DNA of 64,000 nt from an uncultured Fretibacterium sp. Its GTDB lineage: Bacteria > Synergistota > Synergistia > Synergistales > Aminobacteriaceae. Positions within the stretch are counted from its first letter, which is position 1, and each line of letters starts with the position of its first letter. The DNA is taken from contig CAMHMH010000002.1 of assembly GCA_946186205.1 (NCBI GenBank), forward strand, positions 248,001-312,000, read 5' to 3'. The notes beneath the pieces are model-generated. The model saw only the letters and a list, made by a program, of their open reading frames with translations, had not been told where the DNA came from and made no database searches. A program made the position numbers and the translations under genes. This document shows, piece by piece, positions 19,582-28,585 of this stretch.

Positions 19582-22500
19582 TTAATGTTTCGTTGCTTTT
19601 CGTGCGAGCATAAACGCCGCGGCCATTGTGATGAAGATTCCTGAGACTGACGAACAGCCGCCGCCCCCTCCGCCTGAGCTTGAAGTTTGTTCGCCCGGAG
19701 TCGGTGTTACGGGTTCAGGGTCAACATTTATTTCTGACGTGAAAACTTTTATGCATGCGTTGCAGGGTCTTTCGGAGCTTCCCTGCATTATCGTTTTTCC
19801 GTCCTTCCAGTCTGAAAGCCTTGGGGTTGTCTCTTTCTCCGCAAAATAGCTCTCGCCTACATGGACTGATGCCCCGCTGAAAGTTACAGGGTCTTCAACC
19901 GCGCTGTAATATTCGTACGATGTCTCATCTGAAAGTTTCACGATGACAGAGAAATATTCACCGTCTTCAACATTCACCGGGCTGTTTATGCTGACAGTAT
20001 GATAGCCGCAGTAAGTGAGGTTGCCAGAAGCCGCAGGTGTTGCGGGGACTCCGGGGTTCACTGGCTGTGCTTTTCCGAGCGTGTTGATATATATCTCGTA
20101 ATTAACGTTGTTGTTATGCGTGTGGAATGCGACCTCGTGAATCGTTTCGTTCCCTTCTGCCATGAAAACATTTGCGGCCCATTGGTAATTGATTGCGTCC
20201 GCTCCGCCTAGCTGGTCATATCCTCTTTGCCTGAGACCCTGTATCTTTTTGTCGGAAATGAACGCTGCCACATTGTAAAGGTACTGGCTGTAGGAGATCC
20301 AGAAATATCCGCCGTCTGCAAAATATGTGTTCCATGAATTTTTTGCGAGCCACGCGCCTTTTCCGACTGGCGTGGTTATATCGTCGTCCCATCCCGTTAT
20401 GATTACAGCATGGCCGAACCCTCTCTTATCGCTGTAGAATGTTGTCCCCGACAAGCCGGAATGATCGTACCTCATTGATGCCCGCAAAGCTCCGTATTCA
20501 GTTATGAGGCGTTTTATTTCGTCCCTGTTCTTTTCTGTGATGCCTCCCACGATATAAACATCTTTAAGCCTCAGAGGGTCAGAATAATCTTCAGGGTACT
20601 TCCCTCCCGTGAGGCTCTCTGCGTTCTCTGCCTGTGTGTAGGGAAGCTCATTCTCTGAAGCCGTTCCCGCCCTCGACAGGAAAGCCAGCGATACTGAAAG
20701 GCTTCCTCCTTGGTAAAGTACTCCTTTGCCGGGCTCGTTGAGAGGGAATGAATATCCTTCTCTCGTGTCTTTGTACGCGAACCAAGCCTGATGGAGCTCG
20801 GACAGATCCGGCGCGTAATTTCCGGGATAACGGTAAACATAACTTGTCTCCATAGCTCCAAGAGACGCGAAAGACCAGCAAGTCTCGTAAGAACCCTGAT
20901 CCCTTACCTGCGTAACTTTTCCCAGAGTCCTCGGGTCATACTTCGCAGGCAAATTTTCAGCGGCGTAAAAAGCAAACGCATCGGCAAATGATGATGATGA
21001 TACAGCCGGGTTGTCTGAAAGGTGCGAGTAGTCAGCAGGGTCAGGATTTTCACCGTAAAATTCGACTCCCTCATAATATTTTGACGGATCACTGCGCCAT
21101 TCTAAATAGTCAAGGTTGAGCGGGGCAAATTCTGCTGAGACCGGCTCCCATTCACATATCAGTCCGCACACAGCACCATCATTTGACGCATCGTCCCAAT
21201 ATCCCGCGCTGTCTGTCTGTGAACCCGGCATTATTCCGTAAGCCTGCAAGTAATTCCCTGAACCGTCAGGCTGTCCGCCGTAAAAATTTGTGTAGGAAAA
21301 TTCCTCGCCCGTTATCCATTTCCATGTGCCTGATGTCTTTTCACCGCCAAGCCAGAAAACATAATACTCACTTGGCGCGCTCCGCAGCAATTCTTTCACA
21401 GCGTCTTGCTCTTCCCGGCTCGTTATCGTCGCAAGATGTCCGCCGAGAGTCTCGCAGTACAGCTTTGCTTCCTCCCAGTTCATAGCGCGGTCAATGATCG
21501 TATACTTGTGCCCCTTCCATGCCGTGCTGAAGGTGTTGTACACTCTCGAGTCTTCTTTTGTTTCAGCCTGTGAGAGATCTATATTCACTGTCATATTGTG
21601 CCCCCCGCTGGTGTAAGTCCATTGCACTCTTTCAGGGCGCGACGTGAACTGAAGAATGCCCGCTGACAATGTAAACTCTACTGGATTTCCGCCGCTGTCA
21701 TAAGCCTGAATGCCTGAGACATTAGCGAGGCTTCCGGACTTCACGTAGTCGTTAAGGTTTATGCTGTAAATGCTGCCTGAATAATTTATCGTTCCTGCTG
21801 TAAGACTCTGAGTCCCTAAGTCCGCGCTTACAAGCTGAGTGTTCTTTGAGAGGTCAATTTCTGCGAGGTCATTGCTTCCGCAGTAAAGCTCCCTGAGATT
21901 CGTATTGCCGCTTAGGTCTATTGCTGAGATATTGTTCGACTGAAACATGAGGCACTCAAGAAGAGCCAGCCCGCTAACGTCGAGCGAGGTCAGCTGGTTG
22001 CGGTCAACAGCAAGATACTTCAGCTTAGTGTTTTTGCTTACGTCTATGCTTGTGAGTCTGTTATGGCCGTTTATGTTTGCGTTTGCTCCTCCTAATTCGA
22101 GATACTCAAGCTCAGTATTATTCGACACGTCAATTTGAGAGAGTCGGCAGTCCCAAGCGTCAAGATATTTCAGCGCGGTGTTGTTCGTAACGTCAAGAGT
22201 CTTTATGTCATTGCTTCCGCAGTCGAGGCTGACAAGTGCCGTGCAGTTATCAACGTTCAGTGAGGCAAGCTGATTCCTGCTGCATGAGAGATTCAACAGT
22301 GCTGTGCAGTCAGCAAGGTCTAACGCTGTGAGTCTGTTGCGTTTGCAGGATAACTCTTTGAGATTTCGTTTGCCTGAAAGATCAAGCGCGGTGATGCGGT
22401 TAGTATGCTCGGCAGTATCGTCGGCATTAGTACCGCAGTTCAGAATCTCAAGGGCATTGCATCCCGTAACATTCAGCCTGGTCAAGTTGTTGCTCCGTGC

Positions 22501-25362
22501 GTAAACAGTCGTCAAGGCCGTGCAGCCCTCAAGGTTAAGGCTCGTTATTCTGTTGCTCCGGCAGTTGATTTCCTTTAACGCCGTGAAGCCGTGAAGGTCA
22601 AGCGCGCCCGTTATGTTATTGCGATGGCAGAGAAGCTCCCTTAGCTTTGAGTGAGTGCCGAGAGTGAGAGAAGTAACTTTGCTGTCATGGCAGTGAAGTA
22701 TTTCAAGGTTAGGGCAGTTCCTTACGTCAAGTGCTTCAAGGTCAGTGCTCCAGAAGCGAAGGTCGACAAGCGCAGGATTGCTGCTGACATCGGCTGCCTT
22801 TATGCGGGTCCTGTTGTAGCACAAAAACTTAAGGTTAGTATTGTTGCTGAAGTTTCCCGCCGTGATATTGTTGCCGCTAACGTCGAGGCTGATTAACGCA
22901 GGATTGTTGCTTACGTCGAGTGCCGTCAAATTATTGTCGCAGGGAAGAAGGCTCTCAAGCTCTGGGCATTTGCTGACATCAAGCACTGAAAGTTTGTCGC
23001 CTATGCAGTGAAACATTTTGAGCTTTGTATTATTGCTGAGGTCGATTGATGTTATATTGCTGCCGTCAATGAAAAGATCTTCCAGCTTGGGATTCTTCGT
23101 TACGTCGAGTGCCGTCAGTTTGTTCTGACTGTAGAGAGTCGAGAAGCCGTGCGAGCCGTCAGCATTGTAATTGTTCTCGTCAATGAGGTTGTTCAGGTCA
23201 AGCCCTTTGAGTTCGGGATTGTTCGTTACGTTAAGTGCTGTGAGGCTGTTATTCTCAGCTCCAAGCCATTCAAGATATAAATTCCTGCTGAGGTCGATTT
23301 CTGAAATGTTATTCCGTGCACAGTCAATCCCTCTGAGCTGTGTGAAATACTCAATGCCCTTCAAAGACCTTATGCCCATCTCAGGAACGTTTATGTAAAT
23401 GATCCCTGCAATTTCAGAGTCGCTTAGTACTCCGTTGTTGTCCGAGTCAAAATTATTGCTGACATATGCCCTGAAAATATCATCGGGGAAATTCGCGGCG
23501 TTAATCTCAGCACTGCCGGAAGAAGCCGAAATTGTTACGTTCATGTCCCGGGACTGGCAGCCCGTCGCGTAATTGTAGGTAACTTTTGCCGGGATTGAAA
23601 CGAAACGCGCAACGCCTTCCGAGTATGCCGACGTGATACTGTTGTCAGAGGAGTCGAATCCTTGAACGCTTGAGACATTCGCAATTTTGTCCGGGGAAAT
23701 GTACTCGCTCAAGTCTAACTGATAGGGATATGATGAATCTTCTGCGGCTGTGATTGCGAGTCCTCTTCGTGTCTGTGAGTCGCAGTAAAGAGTATCAAGA
23801 GGCTGTATATTCCCCAAGTCAAGAACGGCCAGAGCGTTATTGTTGCATCCTAAATATTCAAGAGCGTTGTTGTTCGCAAGGTCAAGGACAGAGATATTAC
23901 TGCTTCCGCAGCTTATGAACGTCAGAAGAGTATTGCTGCTCACGTCCAAAGCCTGAAGGGACTCATTGTGATAGACATCAAGCTCTTCAAGTTTCGTATT
24001 CCTGCTCACGTCGATATGAACGAGCTTGTTTCTTCCGCATCCTAATGTAACTAACTCAGTGTTATGACTCAAATCGATTTCGGCCAGATTATTTTCCCAG
24101 CAGTCAAGATACTTAAGGGATGTGAAGTGCTCAATGCCTTTCAGTGAAGATATATTGCTTCCTCGCAGGGTTATTCTCTCAGCGTTCGCTATTTCGTCAT
24201 TGCTGAGGAGTCCGTCATTGTTTGTGTCAAAATTATTGCTGACGTACGACCTGAAATTGTCATCAGAAAAGACAGCCGATGTGATTGATACAGGCTCAGA
24301 AAGTGAGGGAGGTGATGAAGGCTCGCTGCCTGAAGCTGAAATTGTTGCCCTCATTGCCGCATCACTTGAGACACTGTAGCCCGTGCTGTAATTGTACCTG
24401 ACTGCCGCCGGATATGCCGTGAACTGTGCTATGCCTCCTGAATACACTGTAGAAATATTTGCGTTTGAAGAGTCGACACCCTGAACGCCTGAGACATTTG
24501 CGAATTTGTCCGGGCTTATGTACTCGCTGAAGTCAAGCTGATAAGGATATGCCGTGCTGCCTGAGCTGTTAATGCTTAAGGGGGTAACATTCTGCGAGCC
24601 GCATGAAAGATAAGTCAAAGCGGAGTTATTGCTTGCGTCAAGTTCTGCGAGCCTGTTTCCTTTGCATGACAAAGTAACAAGAGCGGTGTTATTGCTAACG
24701 TCGAGAGCTGAGAGTCTGTTATCCCTGCACGACAAATAAACCAGTGCTGTGTTGTTGCTAACGTCGAGTGCTTCGAGCTGGTTGCTTGAGCAGGCCAAGT
24801 GAGTCAGTGCTGTGTTGCTGCTTACGTCAAGTGCTGAGAGCGAGTTATTGTAGCATGAAAGATAGGTCAATGCGGTATTGTTGCTTAAGTTAAGTGATGC
24901 GAGCTGATAGTTTCTGAAGCAGGACAGGCGAGTCAATGCGGTGTTGCTGGCTGTGTCAAGTGTCGTGATTTGATTCTCTTCACAGTGAAGCTCAGTCAAT
25001 GCAGTGTTGCCACTCACGTCCAGTACCCCCAGCTGGTTATACTCGCAGTGCAGTACCTGTAAAGCAGTGTTATGACTCACATCAAGTGCCGCAAGCTGAT
25101 TGTTTGAACACCAAAGCACAGTCAAGGCAGTGAAATGTTCTATTCCGCTGAGCGAGGATATTCCCAAGCCGCTGACATAGATACCTGTAGCCCCGGCGAT
25201 TTCAGAATCACTCAATGCCCCGTTATTGTCGGAGTCAAAATTGCTGCTGACGTACGACCTGAATGCAGAGTCCGGGAAATTCGCCGCATTGATAGCCACA
25301 TCCGCGCATGCACACGTAACAATCATGCACACGAGAATCATTGCGCAAAGAATCTTCTTCAT
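19582..25362 (-). CDS. Giant surface protein: EF-hand/LRR modules, C-type lectin, papain-like protease, Synergist-CTERM
   Basis: The 1926 residues start behind AGGAGGAAG with a signal peptide (to CACA near 20). Three modules follow, each opening with INAANFPD-FRxYVS-NFDSDNNGxLSDSEI (an EF-hand/dockerin-like calcium loop) and continuing into LRRs of 21 residues of the form LxxLxCSxNxLxALDVSxNTA. A C-type lectin domain (about 1275-1405; WEEAKLYCETLGGHLATI, WKWITGE) comes next. A C1 papain-like protease follows with Gln1489, Cys1495 (RDQGSYETCWSFA), His1651 (GHAVIITGWDD) and Asn1675 (NSW), then the lectin-like domain typical of bacterial C1 peptidases. The tail has a Gly run, Cys1903, a hydrophobic helix and ARKATKH. 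It is likely a surface-anchored, self-binding protease acting on host or dietary glycoprotein. Uninterrupted catalytic residues suggest activity. Confidence 0.88.
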   Translation of the reverse strand: MKKILCAMILVCMIVTCACADVAINAANFPDSAFRSYVSSNFDSDNNGALSDSEIAGATGIYVSGLGISSLSGIEHFTALTVLWCSNNQLAALDVSHNTALQVLHCEYNQLGVLDVSGNTALTELHCEENQITTLDTASNTALTRLSCFRNYQLASLNLSNNTALTYLSCYNNSLSALDVSSNTALTHLACSSNQLEALDVSNNTALVYLSCRDNRLSALDVSNNTALVTLSCKGNRLAELDASNNSALTYLSCGSQNVTPLSINSSGSTAYPYQLDFSEYISPDKFANVSGVQGVDSSNANISTVYSGGIAQFTAYPAAVRYNYSTGYSVSSDAAMRATISASGSEPSSPPSLSEPVSITSAVFSDDNFRSYVSNNFDTNNDGLLSNDEIANAERITLRGSNISSLKGIEHFTSLKYLDCWENNLAEIDLSHNTELVTLGCGRNKLVHIDVSRNTKLEELDVYHNESLQALDVSSNTLLTFISCGSSNISVLDLANNNALEYLGCNNNALAVLDLGNIQPLDTLYCDSQTRRGLAITAAEDSSYPYQLDLSEYISPDKIANVSSVQGFDSSDNSITSAYSEGVARFVSIPAKVTYNYATGCQSRDMNVTISASSGSAEINAANFPDDIFRAYVSNNFDSDNNGVLSDSEIAGIIYINVPEMGIRSLKGIEYFTQLRGIDCARNNISEIDLSRNLYLEWLGAENNSLTALNVTNNPELKGLDLNNLIDENNYNADGSHGFSTLYSQNKLTALDVTKNPKLEDLFIDGSNITSIDLSNNTKLKMFHCIGDKLSVLDVSKCPELESLLPCDNNLTALDVSNNPALISLDVSGNNITAGNFSNNTNLKFLCYNRTRIKAADVSSNPALVDLRFWSTDLEALDVRNCPNLEILHCHDSKVTSLTLGTHSKLRELLCHRNNITGALDLHGFTALKEINCRSNRITSLNLEGCTALTTVYARSNNLTRLNVTGCNALEILNCGTNADDTAEHTNRITALDLSGKRNLKELSCKRNRLTALDLADCTALLNLSCSRNQLASLNVDNCTALVSLDCGSNDIKTLDVTNNTALKYLDAWDCRLSQIDVSNNTELEYLELGGANANINGHNRLTSIDVSKNTKLKYLAVDRNQLTSLDVSGLALLECLMFQSNNISAIDLSGNTNLRELYCGSNDLAEIDLSKNTQLVSADLGTQSLTAGTINYSGSIYSINLNDYVKSGSLANVSGIQAYDSGGNPVEFTLSAGILQFTSRPERVQWTYTSGGHNMTVNIDLSQAETKEDSRVYNTFSTAWKGHKYTIIDRAMNWEEAKLYCETLGGHLATITSREEQDAVKELLRSAPSEYYVFWLGGEKTSGTWKWITGEEFSYTNFYGGQPDGSGNYLQAYGIMPGSQTDSAGYWDDASNDGAVCGLICEWEPVSAEFAPLNLDYLEWRSDPSKYYEGVEFYGENPDPADYSHLSDNPAVSSSSFADAFAFYAAENLPAKYDPRTLGKVTQVRDQGSYETCWSFASLGAMETSYVYRYPGNYAPDLSELHQAWFAYKDTREGYSFPLNEPGKGVLYQGGSLSVSLAFLSRAGTASENELPYTQAENAESLTGGKYPEDYSDPLRLKDVYIVGGITEKNRDEIKRLITEYGALRASMRYDHSGLSGTTFYSDKRGFGHAVIITGWDDDITTPVGKGAWLAKNSWNTYFADGGYFWISYSQYLYNVAAFISDKKIQGLRQRGYDQLGGADAINYQWAANVFMAEGNETIHEVAFHTHNNNVNYEIYINTLGKAQPVNPGVPATPAASGNLTYCGYHTVSINSPVNVEDGEYFSVIVKLSDETSYEYYSAVEDPVTFSGASVHVGESYFAEKETTPRLSDWKDGKTIMQGSSERPCNACIKVFTSEINVDPEPVTPTPGEQTSSSGGGGGGCSSVSGIFITMAAAFMLARKATKH

Positions 25363-25447: not shown

Positions 25448-25487
25448 CAAAATCCCCCTGACGTTTTCAGCCCGGGGGATTCGTTTT
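25448..25487 (-). terminator. Terminator of the solute-binding protein gene
   Basis: AATCCCCC and GGGGGATT form a strong hairpin just past the 3' end of the gene ending at 25516; the minus strand continues in a T-rich run. Confidence 0.75.
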
Positions 25488-25515: not shown

Positions 25516-26316
25516 TTACTCTGCTTTGTAGTCTTTTGTCAGAACAACGGCAACCTGTTTCGCGTCCTCGTAGGGTTCTGAGAAGTCCGTGAACATCTTG
25601 CGCTCCTCATTGACTGTTATTCCCGCGCAAATCATATCTACCTTTCCTGAGTTCACAGCCATGAAGAGAGAGTCGAACGGGTAAGCGATAATAGCAAGCT
25701 CCTTGTCGAGTTTGCCGGCGATTAACGCGCACATCTCAATATCGATTCCCGTATAGCCGTCGCCTACTTTGATGTCATAGGGAGGGAATCCCGACTCAGT
25801 TCCGAGATACAATTTACCGCCCTTCGCGCCCTTGTGGAGGTCAATATCTTCAGGCTTCGCGGCTGTAGGGTCTTCCTTGTACTTGAGCATGATTGCCTGA
25901 AGTGATCCGTCAGCTTTTATCTCAGCAAGTGCTTTGTTCACAGCGTCAAGAAGTTCTTTGTTCCCCTGCTTGAAGCCTATCGCGTACTGCTCAACCGTCA
26001 GAGCCTCAGGGAGAATCTTCAGCGTGTCGGGGGCATTCTTGACGAACTGGGTCGCGGGTGCTTCGTCCATGATTGCGCCCTGAATCTTTCCGACCTTGAG
26101 AGCCTGTATTACGTCCGTTGCTTTCTCGTATGTCGTGAGCTGATCTTTTGCTTTGTCGCCTAACATTTTGCGGGCGAGTCCTTCTGCGATTGTCCCGCGC
26201 TGAGTCCCTATCTTGATGTTGATAAAGTCATCGGGCTTCGAGATGTTGAGACCGTCAGCGAATGCGACTCCGGCTGTCAGTGCCAACACTGCGAGGATTG
26301 CTGCAAGTTTTTTCAT
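25516..26316 (-). CDS. Circularly permuted solute-binding protein (amino-acid ABC type)
   Basis: A signal peptide (MKKLAAILAV to AFA, 20) leads a protein whose two halves are both SBP_bac_3-like but in reversed order. Residues 25-148 (ISKPDDF, IGTQRGTIAEGLA, VGKIQGAIMDEAPA, LKADGSLQAIMLKYK-like) equal the second half of an ordinary family member. Residues 168-262 (LYLGTESGFPPYDI, GIDIEMCALIA, VNSGKVDMICAGITVNEERK, FSEPYEDAKQ) equal the first half, including the Arg of the ER-K segment and the FPPY that bind the amino acid. Joining the C-terminus to residue 22 restores the normal order. It probably binds a polar amino acid in the periplasm. No permease or ATPase is adjacent. Own promoter at 26352. 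Confidence 0.85.
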   Translation of the reverse strand: MKKLAAILAVLALTAGVAFADGLNISKPDDFINIKIGTQRGTIAEGLARKMLGDKAKDQLTTYEKATDVIQALKVGKIQGAIMDEAPATQFVKNAPDTLKILPEALTVEQYAIGFKQGNKELLDAVNKALAEIKADGSLQAIMLKYKEDPTAAKPEDIDLHKGAKGGKLYLGTESGFPPYDIKVGDGYTGIDIEMCALIAGKLDKELAIIAYPFDSLFMAVNSGKVDMICAGITVNEERKMFTDFSEPYEDAKQVAVVLTKDYKAE

Positions 26317-26351: not shown

Positions 26352-26357
26352 ATTATA
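26352..26357 (-). promoter_or_regulatory. Promoter -10 (TATAAT, minus strand) of the solute-binding protein
   Basis: GGGTATAATACTC on the minus strand overlaps the last bases of the cbiET frame and lies 36 bases before the start codon, so the binding protein can be transcribed apart from the cobamide genes. Confidence 0.55.
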
Positions 26358-27528
26358 CCCTATGGCACGCGCTGAGAATCGTTACGGGGTTGTTTGCCTT
26401 CATCATAGTGAGTGAGGGAGCGAGAGTCTTTGATGATGATGCTGACACCTGAACGGCCTCGAAACTCTCATACCCTTTCAGCGTCGTATAAGCCTCAGTG
26501 AGAGTCTCAAGAGTCACGCAGGCAATAACGACACGCACAGGGTGAGTCATGGCCGATATATGATGCAATAATCCAGACAGCTCGCCGCCAGCCCCGCCGA
26601 TGAAGATATGAGTCGGAGTCGGCAGTTCGTCAATCACATCAAGAGCGCGTTTGTTGTGGATTGTTACATTGTGAAGGTGAAACTTTGCGGCATTCCGTGA
26701 AATTAATTTTGCTGCTGACGGGTTGAAGTCGACCGCGTGAATTTCTGCTGACGGAAAAATATTGCCCGCGTTTACGCTTATGCTTCCTGAGCCCGCGCCG
26801 ATGTCCCAAAGAACAGAGTCATTGCCCATCTCAAGCCGGGACATTATCACCGAACGGACTGACTCATTTGTCATGACGATACGAGGCTCGCGGAGAAAAT
26901 CTTTGTCCCTCAGCAATAACCTTTCAGGCGTAAAAGGACTCACGTTGCGTATGAGTATGATTGAAAGCTCCGGGAAATCAAAGCCCGCGAAACTCTGAGG
27001 ACTCCCGCTGAATATATGCTCATCATTCCCCCCTAGGCACGAGCCTATGAACACTTCAAGGCCGTCAATGCACGATAACTTTTCGCAAGCCCAGGACGGA
27101 GAAATATTTTTGTCGCAGAATAATACGGTGATTCGATTCCGTTCTACAGTGTTGAGGAATTTTCCCGGTGAAAGACTCCGGCCATGTCCTGAAAGTATTG
27201 CTGCGTTGTTCCATGTCTCGCAAGCATGAGCGCATATCGCCTGAAGAGAGCTTATGCCGGGAATGACCCTGATGTTCTCATTGGGATAACGCTTCTTTAT
27301 GACAGGCAAGAGGCTGAAGACTCCCGGGTCGCCTGAAACGAGGATTAATATTTTCCCGGACTCGTTCTCAAGCTGAGAGAAATTTTTGACGGGGATAACC
27401 TTTTTGCCGATGGGAATCATGTCAGCAAACCTTGAGTCAGCAATTACAACATCAGCATCATTAACCGCGTTCATCACTTCCGAAGTAACATCACCGAGTC
27501 CCGCGCCAGCAATGACAATCTCACGCAT
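26353..27528 (-). CDS. cbiET: Cobalt-precorrin-7 C5-methyltransferase / precorrin-6B C15-methyltransferase (CbiE-CbiT fusion)
   Basis: Start taken at ATG 27528 (MREIVIAGAGLG), which overlaps the cbiD stop by eight bases; a longer frame to 27561 lies inside cbiD. Residues 1-190 form a tetrapyrrole methylase (IAGAGLGDVT, SGDPGVFSL). Residues 195-390 form a CbiT-type Rossmann methyltransferase, with DIGAGSGSISVNAG as SAM motif. The fusion methylates corrin positions C5 and C15 and decarboxylates the acetate side chain in cobamide synthesis. It is the last gene of the his-cbi run. Confidence 0.92.
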   Translation of the reverse strand: MREIVIAGAGLGDVTSEVMNAVNDADVVIADSRFADMIPIGKKVIPVKNFSQLENESGKILILVSGDPGVFSLLPVIKKRYPNENIRVIPGISSLQAICAHACETWNNAAILSGHGRSLSPGKFLNTVERNRITVLFCDKNISPSWACEKLSCIDGLEVFIGSCLGGNDEHIFSGSPQSFAGFDFPELSIILIRNVSPFTPERLLLRDKDFLREPRIVMTNESVRSVIMSRLEMGNDSVLWDIGAGSGSISVNAGNIFPSAEIHAVDFNPSAAKLISRNAAKFHLHNVTIHNKRALDVIDELPTPTHIFIGGAGGELSGLLHHISAMTHPVRVVIACVTLETLTEAYTTLKGYESFEAVQVSASSSKTLAPSLTMMKANNPVTILSACHRV

Positions 27529-28585
27529 GATACGCGCCCAATATATTACCGTCTGAATCAATGAATACCGCGCTGATCTTCATGGCCTTGCTGACTCTCT
27601 CCTCACACTTGAATGAAATGACACGCGCAATATTATTCCACACGTTTGCGAATCCTTCAGCCGTTATGATGTTGATTGCCTCGTTCGTAGTGTTGCTGTT
27701 GTAGATTCGGTGAATGAGACTCTGACCTGCTCCCATCAACGCGAGGTGAGCGCAAAGAGACTCTAATCTTCCGTCGGCGACTCTGCTGTGAGTGATGAAA
27801 TTTCCTGCTGAGACTTTGAGGAGCTTACCGGGATGCCCGCATATTATCGCGTGTGTGAAACCTAACTTTGCTGACTCGTCTAAGACATGGCCGGGGTAAT
27901 TTCCGCACTGTATAACGTTCCTGCCATGAATGCCGAATATCCTGCGGGTAAATTTCTCTCCTGTTCCTGCAAACGCAATGAAGATTTCACGGTGTCCGAG
28001 AGAATGTATCATGCTCAACTCCAACGTGAGAGAGTCAATTAACGCCTGCTCATTCATGGGCTTGACGACTCCTGTTGTGCCTAATATCGATATGCCTCCG
28101 ATGATTCCGAGTCTGGGGTTGAAAGTCTTTCGTGCTAATTCCTCGCCATGTGGTACGGATATGATTACGCGGATTGATTCTCGTGGGATGACTTCACGAA
28201 CAGCACGTTTAATCATTTCGCGGGGTATAGGGTTGATTGCGGGCTCGCCGGGAGGAACTTTGAGTCCCGGAAGCGTAACGACTCCGACTCCTTTACCGGC
28301 CATGAAGACAATATCATTTTCACCGCCAATGATTTCGACTCTCGCCAGTATTTTCGCGCCGTCCGTAATGTCTGACCTGTCATCGCCTGAGTCTTTCACA
28401 ACGCAGAAGCAATCCCCTTCACGTGAAACATCAAGGTGAAATTCGAGTCCTTCAAGGTTTCGTACTGTTACGGATTGGGGAGTCCTTCCTGAGATGAGAT
28501 ATATTGCGGAGGCTTTAGCGGCTGCCGCGGCGCATGTGCCTGTAGTTACGCCAGCCCGTAGAGTATCGCGTTGACGATCGCACAA
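27521..28585 (-). CDS. cbiD: Cobalt-precorrin-5B C1-methyltransferase CbiD
   Basis: A 354-residue protein with the CbiD signature near its start (LRAGVTTGTCAAAAAKA) and the central GTTGVVKPMNEQA. CbiD methylates C1 and triggers ring contraction chemistry in the anaerobic, cobalt-early pathway. Its TTG start lies inside cbiC, with a 40-base overlap. No other start before the signature is available. The presence of CbiD, CbiG and CbiF marks the anaerobic branch. Confidence 0.95.
   Translation of the reverse strand: MCDRQRDTLRAGVTTGTCAAAAAKASAIYLISGRTPQSVTVRNLEGLEFHLDVSREGDCFCVVKDSGDDRSDITDGAKILARVEIIGGENDIVFMAGKGVGVVTLPGLKVPPGEPAINPIPREMIKRAVREVIPRESIRVIISVPHGEELARKTFNPRLGIIGGISILGTTGVVKPMNEQALIDSLTLELSMIHSLGHREIFIAFAGTGEKFTRRIFGIHGRNVIQCGNYPGHVLDESAKLGFTHAIICGHPGKLLKVSAGNFITHSRVADGRLESLCAHLALMGAGQSLIHRIYNSNTTNEAINIITAEGFANVWNNIARVISFKCEERVSKAMKISAVFIDSDGNILGAYHA

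Follow-up and report, generated by a model that had tools for sequence, protein, structure and literature searches.

It is likely that permutation of SBP_bac_3 genes is recurrent and ongoing, with five or more events in our sample that left the gene in its place and the importer operon around it unchanged, that nearly all of these cuts fall in the first hinge-crossing loop, one being at the second crossing, and that the permuted unit of one lineage has given rise to permease-fused arrays of up to 12 domains. The case studied here lies in a window of 64,000 nucleotides (the whole stretch of DNA that was analysed) from an uncultured Fretibacterium sp. Its product, hereafter the window protein, is very likely a working periplasmic binding protein for alpha-amino acids, permuted by tandem duplication and trimming and probably sharing the importer of a permuted paralogue, although no binding or transport data are available.

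Exchanged order of the two halves

The Pfam profile SBP_bac_3 (PF00497) matches the whole window protein in two stretches (1.8e-29, 102.6 bits), above its curated cut-off of 26.4 bits, and the best stretch aligns residues 171-261 with profile positions 3-93. When the halves are searched in isolation, the first corresponds to profile positions 97-129 (2.2e-7) and the second to positions 3-93 (3e-21). As positions 97-129 are matched earlier in the chain than positions 3-93, the window protein is a permuted SBP_bac_3 variant; the normal linear order, with the N-terminal half first, is not kept. Similarly, the best PDB chain found by phmmer, the ancestral arginine/glutamine binding protein AncQR (4zv1), is matched by two stretches in exchanged order: residues 166-258 align with chain residues 9-102 (i-E 9.9e-17), and residues 25-145 with chain residues 109-229 (i-E 2.8e-14). 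Both halves matching the same half of normal proteins would have refuted a permutation, and this does not hold, since the Pfam and phmmer stretches lie in different halves. The exchange of halves reported in the preliminary description is thus borne out; its residue ranges (25-148 and 168-262) were correct to within a few residues, and the new signal peptide that it placed ahead of the second half is likewise found, by eye (Table 1). The permuted order also explains the low scores in profile annotation: NCBIfam models of normal members stay far under their cut-offs, the best being TIGR01096 (113.6 bits instead of 256.35), with both halves matched.

Table 1. Features of the permuted gene and its surroundings in the window.
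Feature	Position	Strand	Basis or remark
Circularly permuted SBP_bac_3 gene	25516..26316	-	266 aa plus stop, ATG start, one frame
Signal peptide, residues 1-20	26257..26316	-	Cleavage after AFA, read by eye without a predictor
Half B, residues 21-147, corresponding to the C-terminal half in normal order: lobe 2, then the second hinge strand (residues 107-116) and the C-terminal helices of lobe 1	25876..26256	-	Sequence matches and model
New internal linker, residues 148-166, from old C-terminus to old N-terminus	25819..25875	-	
Half A, residues 167-266, corresponding to the N-terminal half in normal order: N-terminal portion of lobe 1, with the first hinge strand (residues 250-259) at its end	25519..25818	-	Sequence matches and model
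Asp84, aligned with the conserved lobe 2 Asp	26065..26067	-	Alignment
Arg239 in AGITVNEERK, aligned with the conserved Arg	25600..25602	-	Alignment
Likely terminator past the gene, inverted repeat AATCCCCC / GGGGGATT	25451..25481	.	Sequence reading, no scan
Cobalamin-type methyltransferase gene, upstream neighbour	26353..27561	-	cbiET name from sequence reading, no family search

No lipobox was seen when the sequence of the window protein was read by eye. The inverted repeat past the gene is followed, on the same kind of reading, by T runs on both strands. Beside the gene, positions 19582-25362 of the minus strand encode a secreted protein of 1926 residues with leucine-rich repeat, C-type lectin, papain-type protease and lectin-like domains.

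Predicted structure

A single-sequence structure prediction of the window protein was discarded (pLDDT 31.3). An alignment-based model reached a pLDDT of 95.7 and a pTM of 0.90. Its alignment has 45 rows, namely the window protein, 34 permuted relatives and the separate halves of five normal proteins; as normal proteins enter only as separate halves, the packing of the two halves rests on the 35 permuted rows and on the predictor's prior. In protein numbering (model residue number plus 20), the strands and helices of lobe 2 are predicted at residues 36-101, a hinge strand at 107-116, C-terminal helices at 120-148, the N-terminal part of lobe 1 at 168-245 and the other hinge strand at 250-259, the assignment to lobes being an inference from the order of elements in the model. 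Strands and helices follow one another as in a family 3 binding protein with exchanged order. This order places the cut in the loop of the first hinge crossing, so that one of the two crossings is no longer covalent; it follows that both lobes are contiguous in sequence.

Sequence matches and model thus support the suggestion that the new termini lie in this loop. A fold other than the two-lobed type would have told against the permutation, and the confident model, with its SBP-like order of elements, gives no sign of one as far as this can be tested: it is two-lobed, and the list of structural matches contains mostly binding-protein chains. The structure prediction that had been proposed as a check has therefore been made, without the permutation-aware superposition, and the reading as a clean permutation, and not a fragment or a fusion of two genes, agrees with profile matches, PDB matches and predicted structure.

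Foldseek and VIA-align are sequential aligners, which follow chain order only, and their match lists do not cover every fold, so that a family's absence from them does not exclude it. OpuAC (2b4l) ranks first (Z 14.0, 210 aligned, 3.9 A, model residues 13-246 on chain residues 15-265), with the normal-order ArgBP under it (Z 11.9, 175 aligned). As OpuAC is a published permutant, its top rank is what a permuted order predicts.

Ligand site

The conserved lobe 2 Asp (Asp84) and lobe 1 Arg (Arg239) are presumed to bind the alpha-amino group and the alpha-carboxylate of the ligand, respectively. The Asp is conserved in all sequences of the window protein's type (37), of its paralogue's type (43) and of a third type (3); the Arg is conserved in 37 of 37, 42 of 43 (one gap) and 3 of 3. 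The residues of a type II amino-acid SBP, a lobe 2 Asp and an Arg in a lobe 1 motif of the T-x-x-E-R type, are hence present in the window protein, and the ligand-binding landmarks noticed earlier in both halves are confirmed.

Distribution and transporter context

Among 185 Synergistota genomes searched, 163 match at all and 50 carry full-length, one-piece permuted relatives (counted from match rows): all 43 genomes of the window's genus, all four of g11, and one each of g5, g8 and g10. This supplies the survey of Synergistota for which the preliminary description had called. In an independent collection with named records, half B precedes half A in 75 of 79 loci (the four normal ones are L147-L150); the permuted loci nearly all come from metagenome assemblies of Synergistaceae or Fretibacterium, and ruminant digestive tracts are the source of the great majority. 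One record titled Clostridiaceae (L141:1835-2776, plus strand) carries a permuted protein that shares 51% identity with the window protein; protein and operon are both of Synergistota type, which may reflect either a transfer or a mislabelled assembly. Plasmid records match in 384 of 72,556 cases, eight of which cover at least 80% of the query, each in two pieces; no permuted relative was recognised among these eight rows, six of which are named as an ordinary binding protein, the order of the pieces being unchecked.

The window's own genome also encodes a permuted paralogue (L032:5623-6420), with which the window protein shares 57% identity. In none of the 33 loci listed (of 34) is there a permease within three genes of the window-type gene, and in 18 of these 33 that gene directly follows a cbiET-like gene, which adjoins many orthologues of the window gene. 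Genes of the paralogue type have a permease next door in 35 of the 37 loci listed (of 39), mostly followed by an ATPase (L086, L129 and L140 are absent from the loci listed in this comparison); in the own genome, Pfam confirms the paralogue's neighbours as BPD_transp_1 and ABC_tran. The paralogue type is found in 34 of the 39 genomes with the window type (counted from match rows). Of the five without a complete paralogue (G055, which holds a fragment, G057, G071, G080 and G083), four are less than 92% complete or fragmented, and G080 is 92% complete. As the paralogue adjoins a permease and an ATPase, we take the window protein to be an extra binding protein for that importer. Both binding and transport are inferred, and a working amino-acid binding protein that uses the paralogue's importer remains the most likely reading.

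As sequence and predicted structure show, the chain begins in the first hinge-crossing loop, passes through lobe 2 and the C-terminal part of lobe 1 and, after the linker of 19 residues, enters the N-terminal part of lobe 1, and the first hinge strand is now the C-terminal one. On the proposed reading, the ligand would be held between Asp84 and Arg239 as in normal members, a role deduced from the chemistry of the family, and the orphan gene would feed the permease-ATPase pair beside its paralogue.

A second permuted family and multi-unit proteins

A second permuted family, also with half B before half A, consists of proteins of about 270-306 residues. The own genome holds about a dozen copies (in L032, L033, L034, L040 and L041), and full-length members (E below 1e-30) occur in 42 of the 43 genomes of the genus and in three of the four of g11. 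This family, greatly expanded in the genus, has lost the amino-acid-binding Asp and Arg: in 63 sequences, the Asp is replaced by Pro in 52, and the Arg has no common replacement. A stretch of about 14 kb, with ORFs of the same lengths, is present in both L040 and L041 (contigs 2 and 10 of the own genome) in opposite orientation, as either a large duplication or an assembly duplicate.

Contig 9 of the own genome encodes a giant of 2015 residues (L031:2799-8846, minus strand), with seven B-A units and a C-terminal permease domain, and the next gene encodes an ATPase. Giants in relatives have 2-12 permuted units fused to a permease, for example twelve in L241:3857-13606 (3249 residues). Of the 17 giants examined, 15 are unbroken series of B-A units; the other two are L188, which is truncated by the end of its contig, and L182, in which one unit is unrecognised. 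In 16 arrays, the B-to-A gap has a median of 19 (n = 85, SD 0.9, range 16-20), and in permuted single proteins also 19 (n = 143, SD 2.3). The A-to-B gap has a median of 21 in the same arrays (n = 70, SD 7.2, range -6 to 53) and of 13 in normal single proteins (n = 32, SD 2.5). From the nearly constant B-to-A gap and the variable A-to-B gap we conclude that B-A is the folding unit and the A-to-B stretch a flexible joint; reading the giants as normal units out of phase is rejected on the same grounds. In G122, which belongs to another family of the same order, one chain makes up an entire importer by joining a permuted unit with permease and ATPase domains (L229:901-3234, plus strand), and another fuses a permuted unit to a permease (L196:2486-4027).

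Permuted and normal proteins outside Synergistota

When a further 398 genomes, all belonging to the phylum of Faecalicatena, were searched, more one-piece matches were obtained, and stretches from 17 of the matching genomes were inspected. B-A proteins occur in 14 of them (one, L246, runs into a contig end), that is in at least 14 genomes among the matches listed, only those places having been checked. G555 and G479 hold normal tandem proteins, and in G409 the protein is cut elsewhere. Two candidate permuted matches, L239 and L240, were rejected as tandem normal-order proteins (ABAB). Most of the permuted proteins found in this search adjoin permease and ATPase genes or are fused to a permease. 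The G409 protein (L262:2438-3295, minus strand) begins with the C-terminal part of lobe 1, continues with the N-terminal part of that lobe and ends with lobe 2, and its cut thus lies at the second hinge crossing. Its arrangement mirrors that of the window protein, and its operon encodes a permease and an ATPase.

The clearest comparison is that of the permuted L257 and L258 with the normal L267-L271: between the two orders, half A is 69-84% and half B 51-66% identical. L257 and L267-L271 also have permeases in the same place, which share 55-65% identity, and the ATPase comes next wherever the stretch reaches that far. Another pair, L260 (permuted) and L232 (normal), is 72% identical in half A, 65% in half B, 76% in the permease and 72% in the ATPase. 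Permuted and normal proteins of Clostridia, 51-84% identical per half, thus occupy the same operon. Comparison of the recently permuted L257 with L267 shows an internal linker that resembles the former C-terminal tail with the former mature N-terminus behind it; this is the arrangement expected if a normal gene was duplicated, fused and trimmed. An origin by tandem duplication and trimming had been suggested for the window gene; this linker and the occurrence of ABAB tandems beside permuted proteins give the suggestion indirect support only.

Number of events

In a tree of 67 rows, mostly from Synergistota, all 41 permuted rows lie on one side, without support (49/68), and separate trees of halves A and B do not reject this grouping (p = 0.466 and 0.51). 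Three long normal rows (L148_2519, L217_1312 and L209_1498) are omitted from this tree, two of which fell among permuted rows in a quick tree of 70 rows. A second tree, with Bacillota, comprises 34 permuted and 65 normal rows; it omits L229_901, its Bacillota rows were thinned at 75% identity, and it includes five rows of the second permuted family and arrays only from L031 and L185. The best 99-row tree has 8 changes of order, and its supported (starred) branches force at least five. The preliminary description had called permutation in SBP_bac_3 unusual; this has to be corrected to recurrent, and the trees support several similar events in the family.

A single clade is rejected for all 34 permuted rows together (p = 2.4e-6) but not for the 22 of them that come from Synergistota (p = 0.073); from these alignments, a single origin within Synergistota can be neither asserted nor rejected. 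The window protein belongs to a clade of 7 rows (100/99), the supported neighbour of which (98/94) is a normal Clostridial protein. Deep branches of the trees are weak, and bootstrap values for the 99-row tree were still unsettled (correlation 0.964). Gain and loss are indistinguishable from the number of order changes, and the number of events depends on sampling; as L257 branches among normal rows, the permutation is most naturally read as a gain.

Alternative explanations

The window gene could in principle be an artefact, due to misassembly or to a fragment or fusion of two neighbouring genes. We found nothing in favour of this, and it is practically ruled out: recurrence of the same order across Synergistota genomes and in the independent collection refutes an assembly error, and the gene has a signal peptide, a single frame, a distance of 36 bp to the upstream gene and no leftover SBP half in the flanking sequence on either side. 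It is scarcely more tenable that the window protein belongs to the OpuAC (glycine betaine) family, where its order is native. The sequential aligners do place OpuAC at the top of the structural matches, but common chain order alone explains this ranking, while SBP_bac_3 matches both halves, PF04069 (the OpuAC family) is not matched in Pfam up to E = 1, the PDB sequence matches are amino-acid binding proteins, and identity to OpuAC is 15%, compared with 34% between half A and ArgBP. OpuAC membership is thus rejected on sequence. A very improbable alternative to repeated permutation is that all permuted members descend from one ancient event, their normal-order neighbours being misplaced in the tree. 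One origin of the Synergistota groups is indeed not rejected, but a clade of all permuted rows is, supported branches force several changes, same-operon pairs have opposite orders with closely similar halves, and the protein of L262 is cut at a different place.

Two further possibilities concern how the window protein works. With its termini at the hinge, an exchange of lobes is by inference sterically conceivable, and a domain-swapped dimer might restore both hinge crossings in trans; this is improbable given the confident model of the monomer, the only form modelled. The protein might also be a free sensor or scavenger instead of an importer's binding protein, as its gene is an orphan in every window-type locus listed and often directly follows cbiET. 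This is unlikely without being negligible, since the same genomes encode close paralogues that belong to importers of the classical kind and no attached sensor domain was detected in the Pfam profile search. We therefore retain an amino-acid binding protein that shares the paralogue's importer.

Comparison with known systems

Circular permutation in nature is mostly discussed as rare or ancient. Orthologous importers of both orders, at 51-84% identity per half, provide natural pairs for measurement, in which the effect of losing a covalent hinge crossing on affinity, opening and closing, and permease docking can be determined. Permuted proteins are also natural templates for biosensors, which are today built on engineered permutants. 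In the open-licence literature, we found no report of natural permutation in SBP_bac_3 and no case of recurrent permutation in binding proteins; these two points appear to be new. Permutation of binding proteins as such is already known, from OpuAC and TpMglB-2.

Normal-order SBP_bac_3 proteins (GlnBP, ArgBP and AncQR), which we take to be type II binding proteins, have the same halves, ligand Asp and Arg, and fold type as the window protein, which differs from them by its exchanged halves, its termini moved to the hinge and its new linker. OpuAC (2B4L), which has been described as circularly permuted relative to other binding proteins for glycine betaine and for molybdate (PMC2395249), has the same chain order as far as sequential alignment shows. 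It differs in sequence family (PF04069) and ligand chemistry, and is an ancient, isolated case.

Tp0684 (TpMglB-2) of Treponema pallidum, classified as "Type Ic", is like the window protein a naturally permuted binding protein, and it still binds its ligand (PMC4990184). It is a Type I / cluster B sugar protein cut inside the sheet of lobe 1, and its permutation adds a fourth crossing, whereas that of the window protein removes one (PMC4990184). The window protein, whose sequence family is SBP_bac_3, is not of the Type I / cluster B fold. Finally, GlnPQ resembles the giants of the genus in having tandem binding domains of the same family fused to a permease; it has two units in normal order, while the giants have 2-12 permuted ones (PMC8025302).
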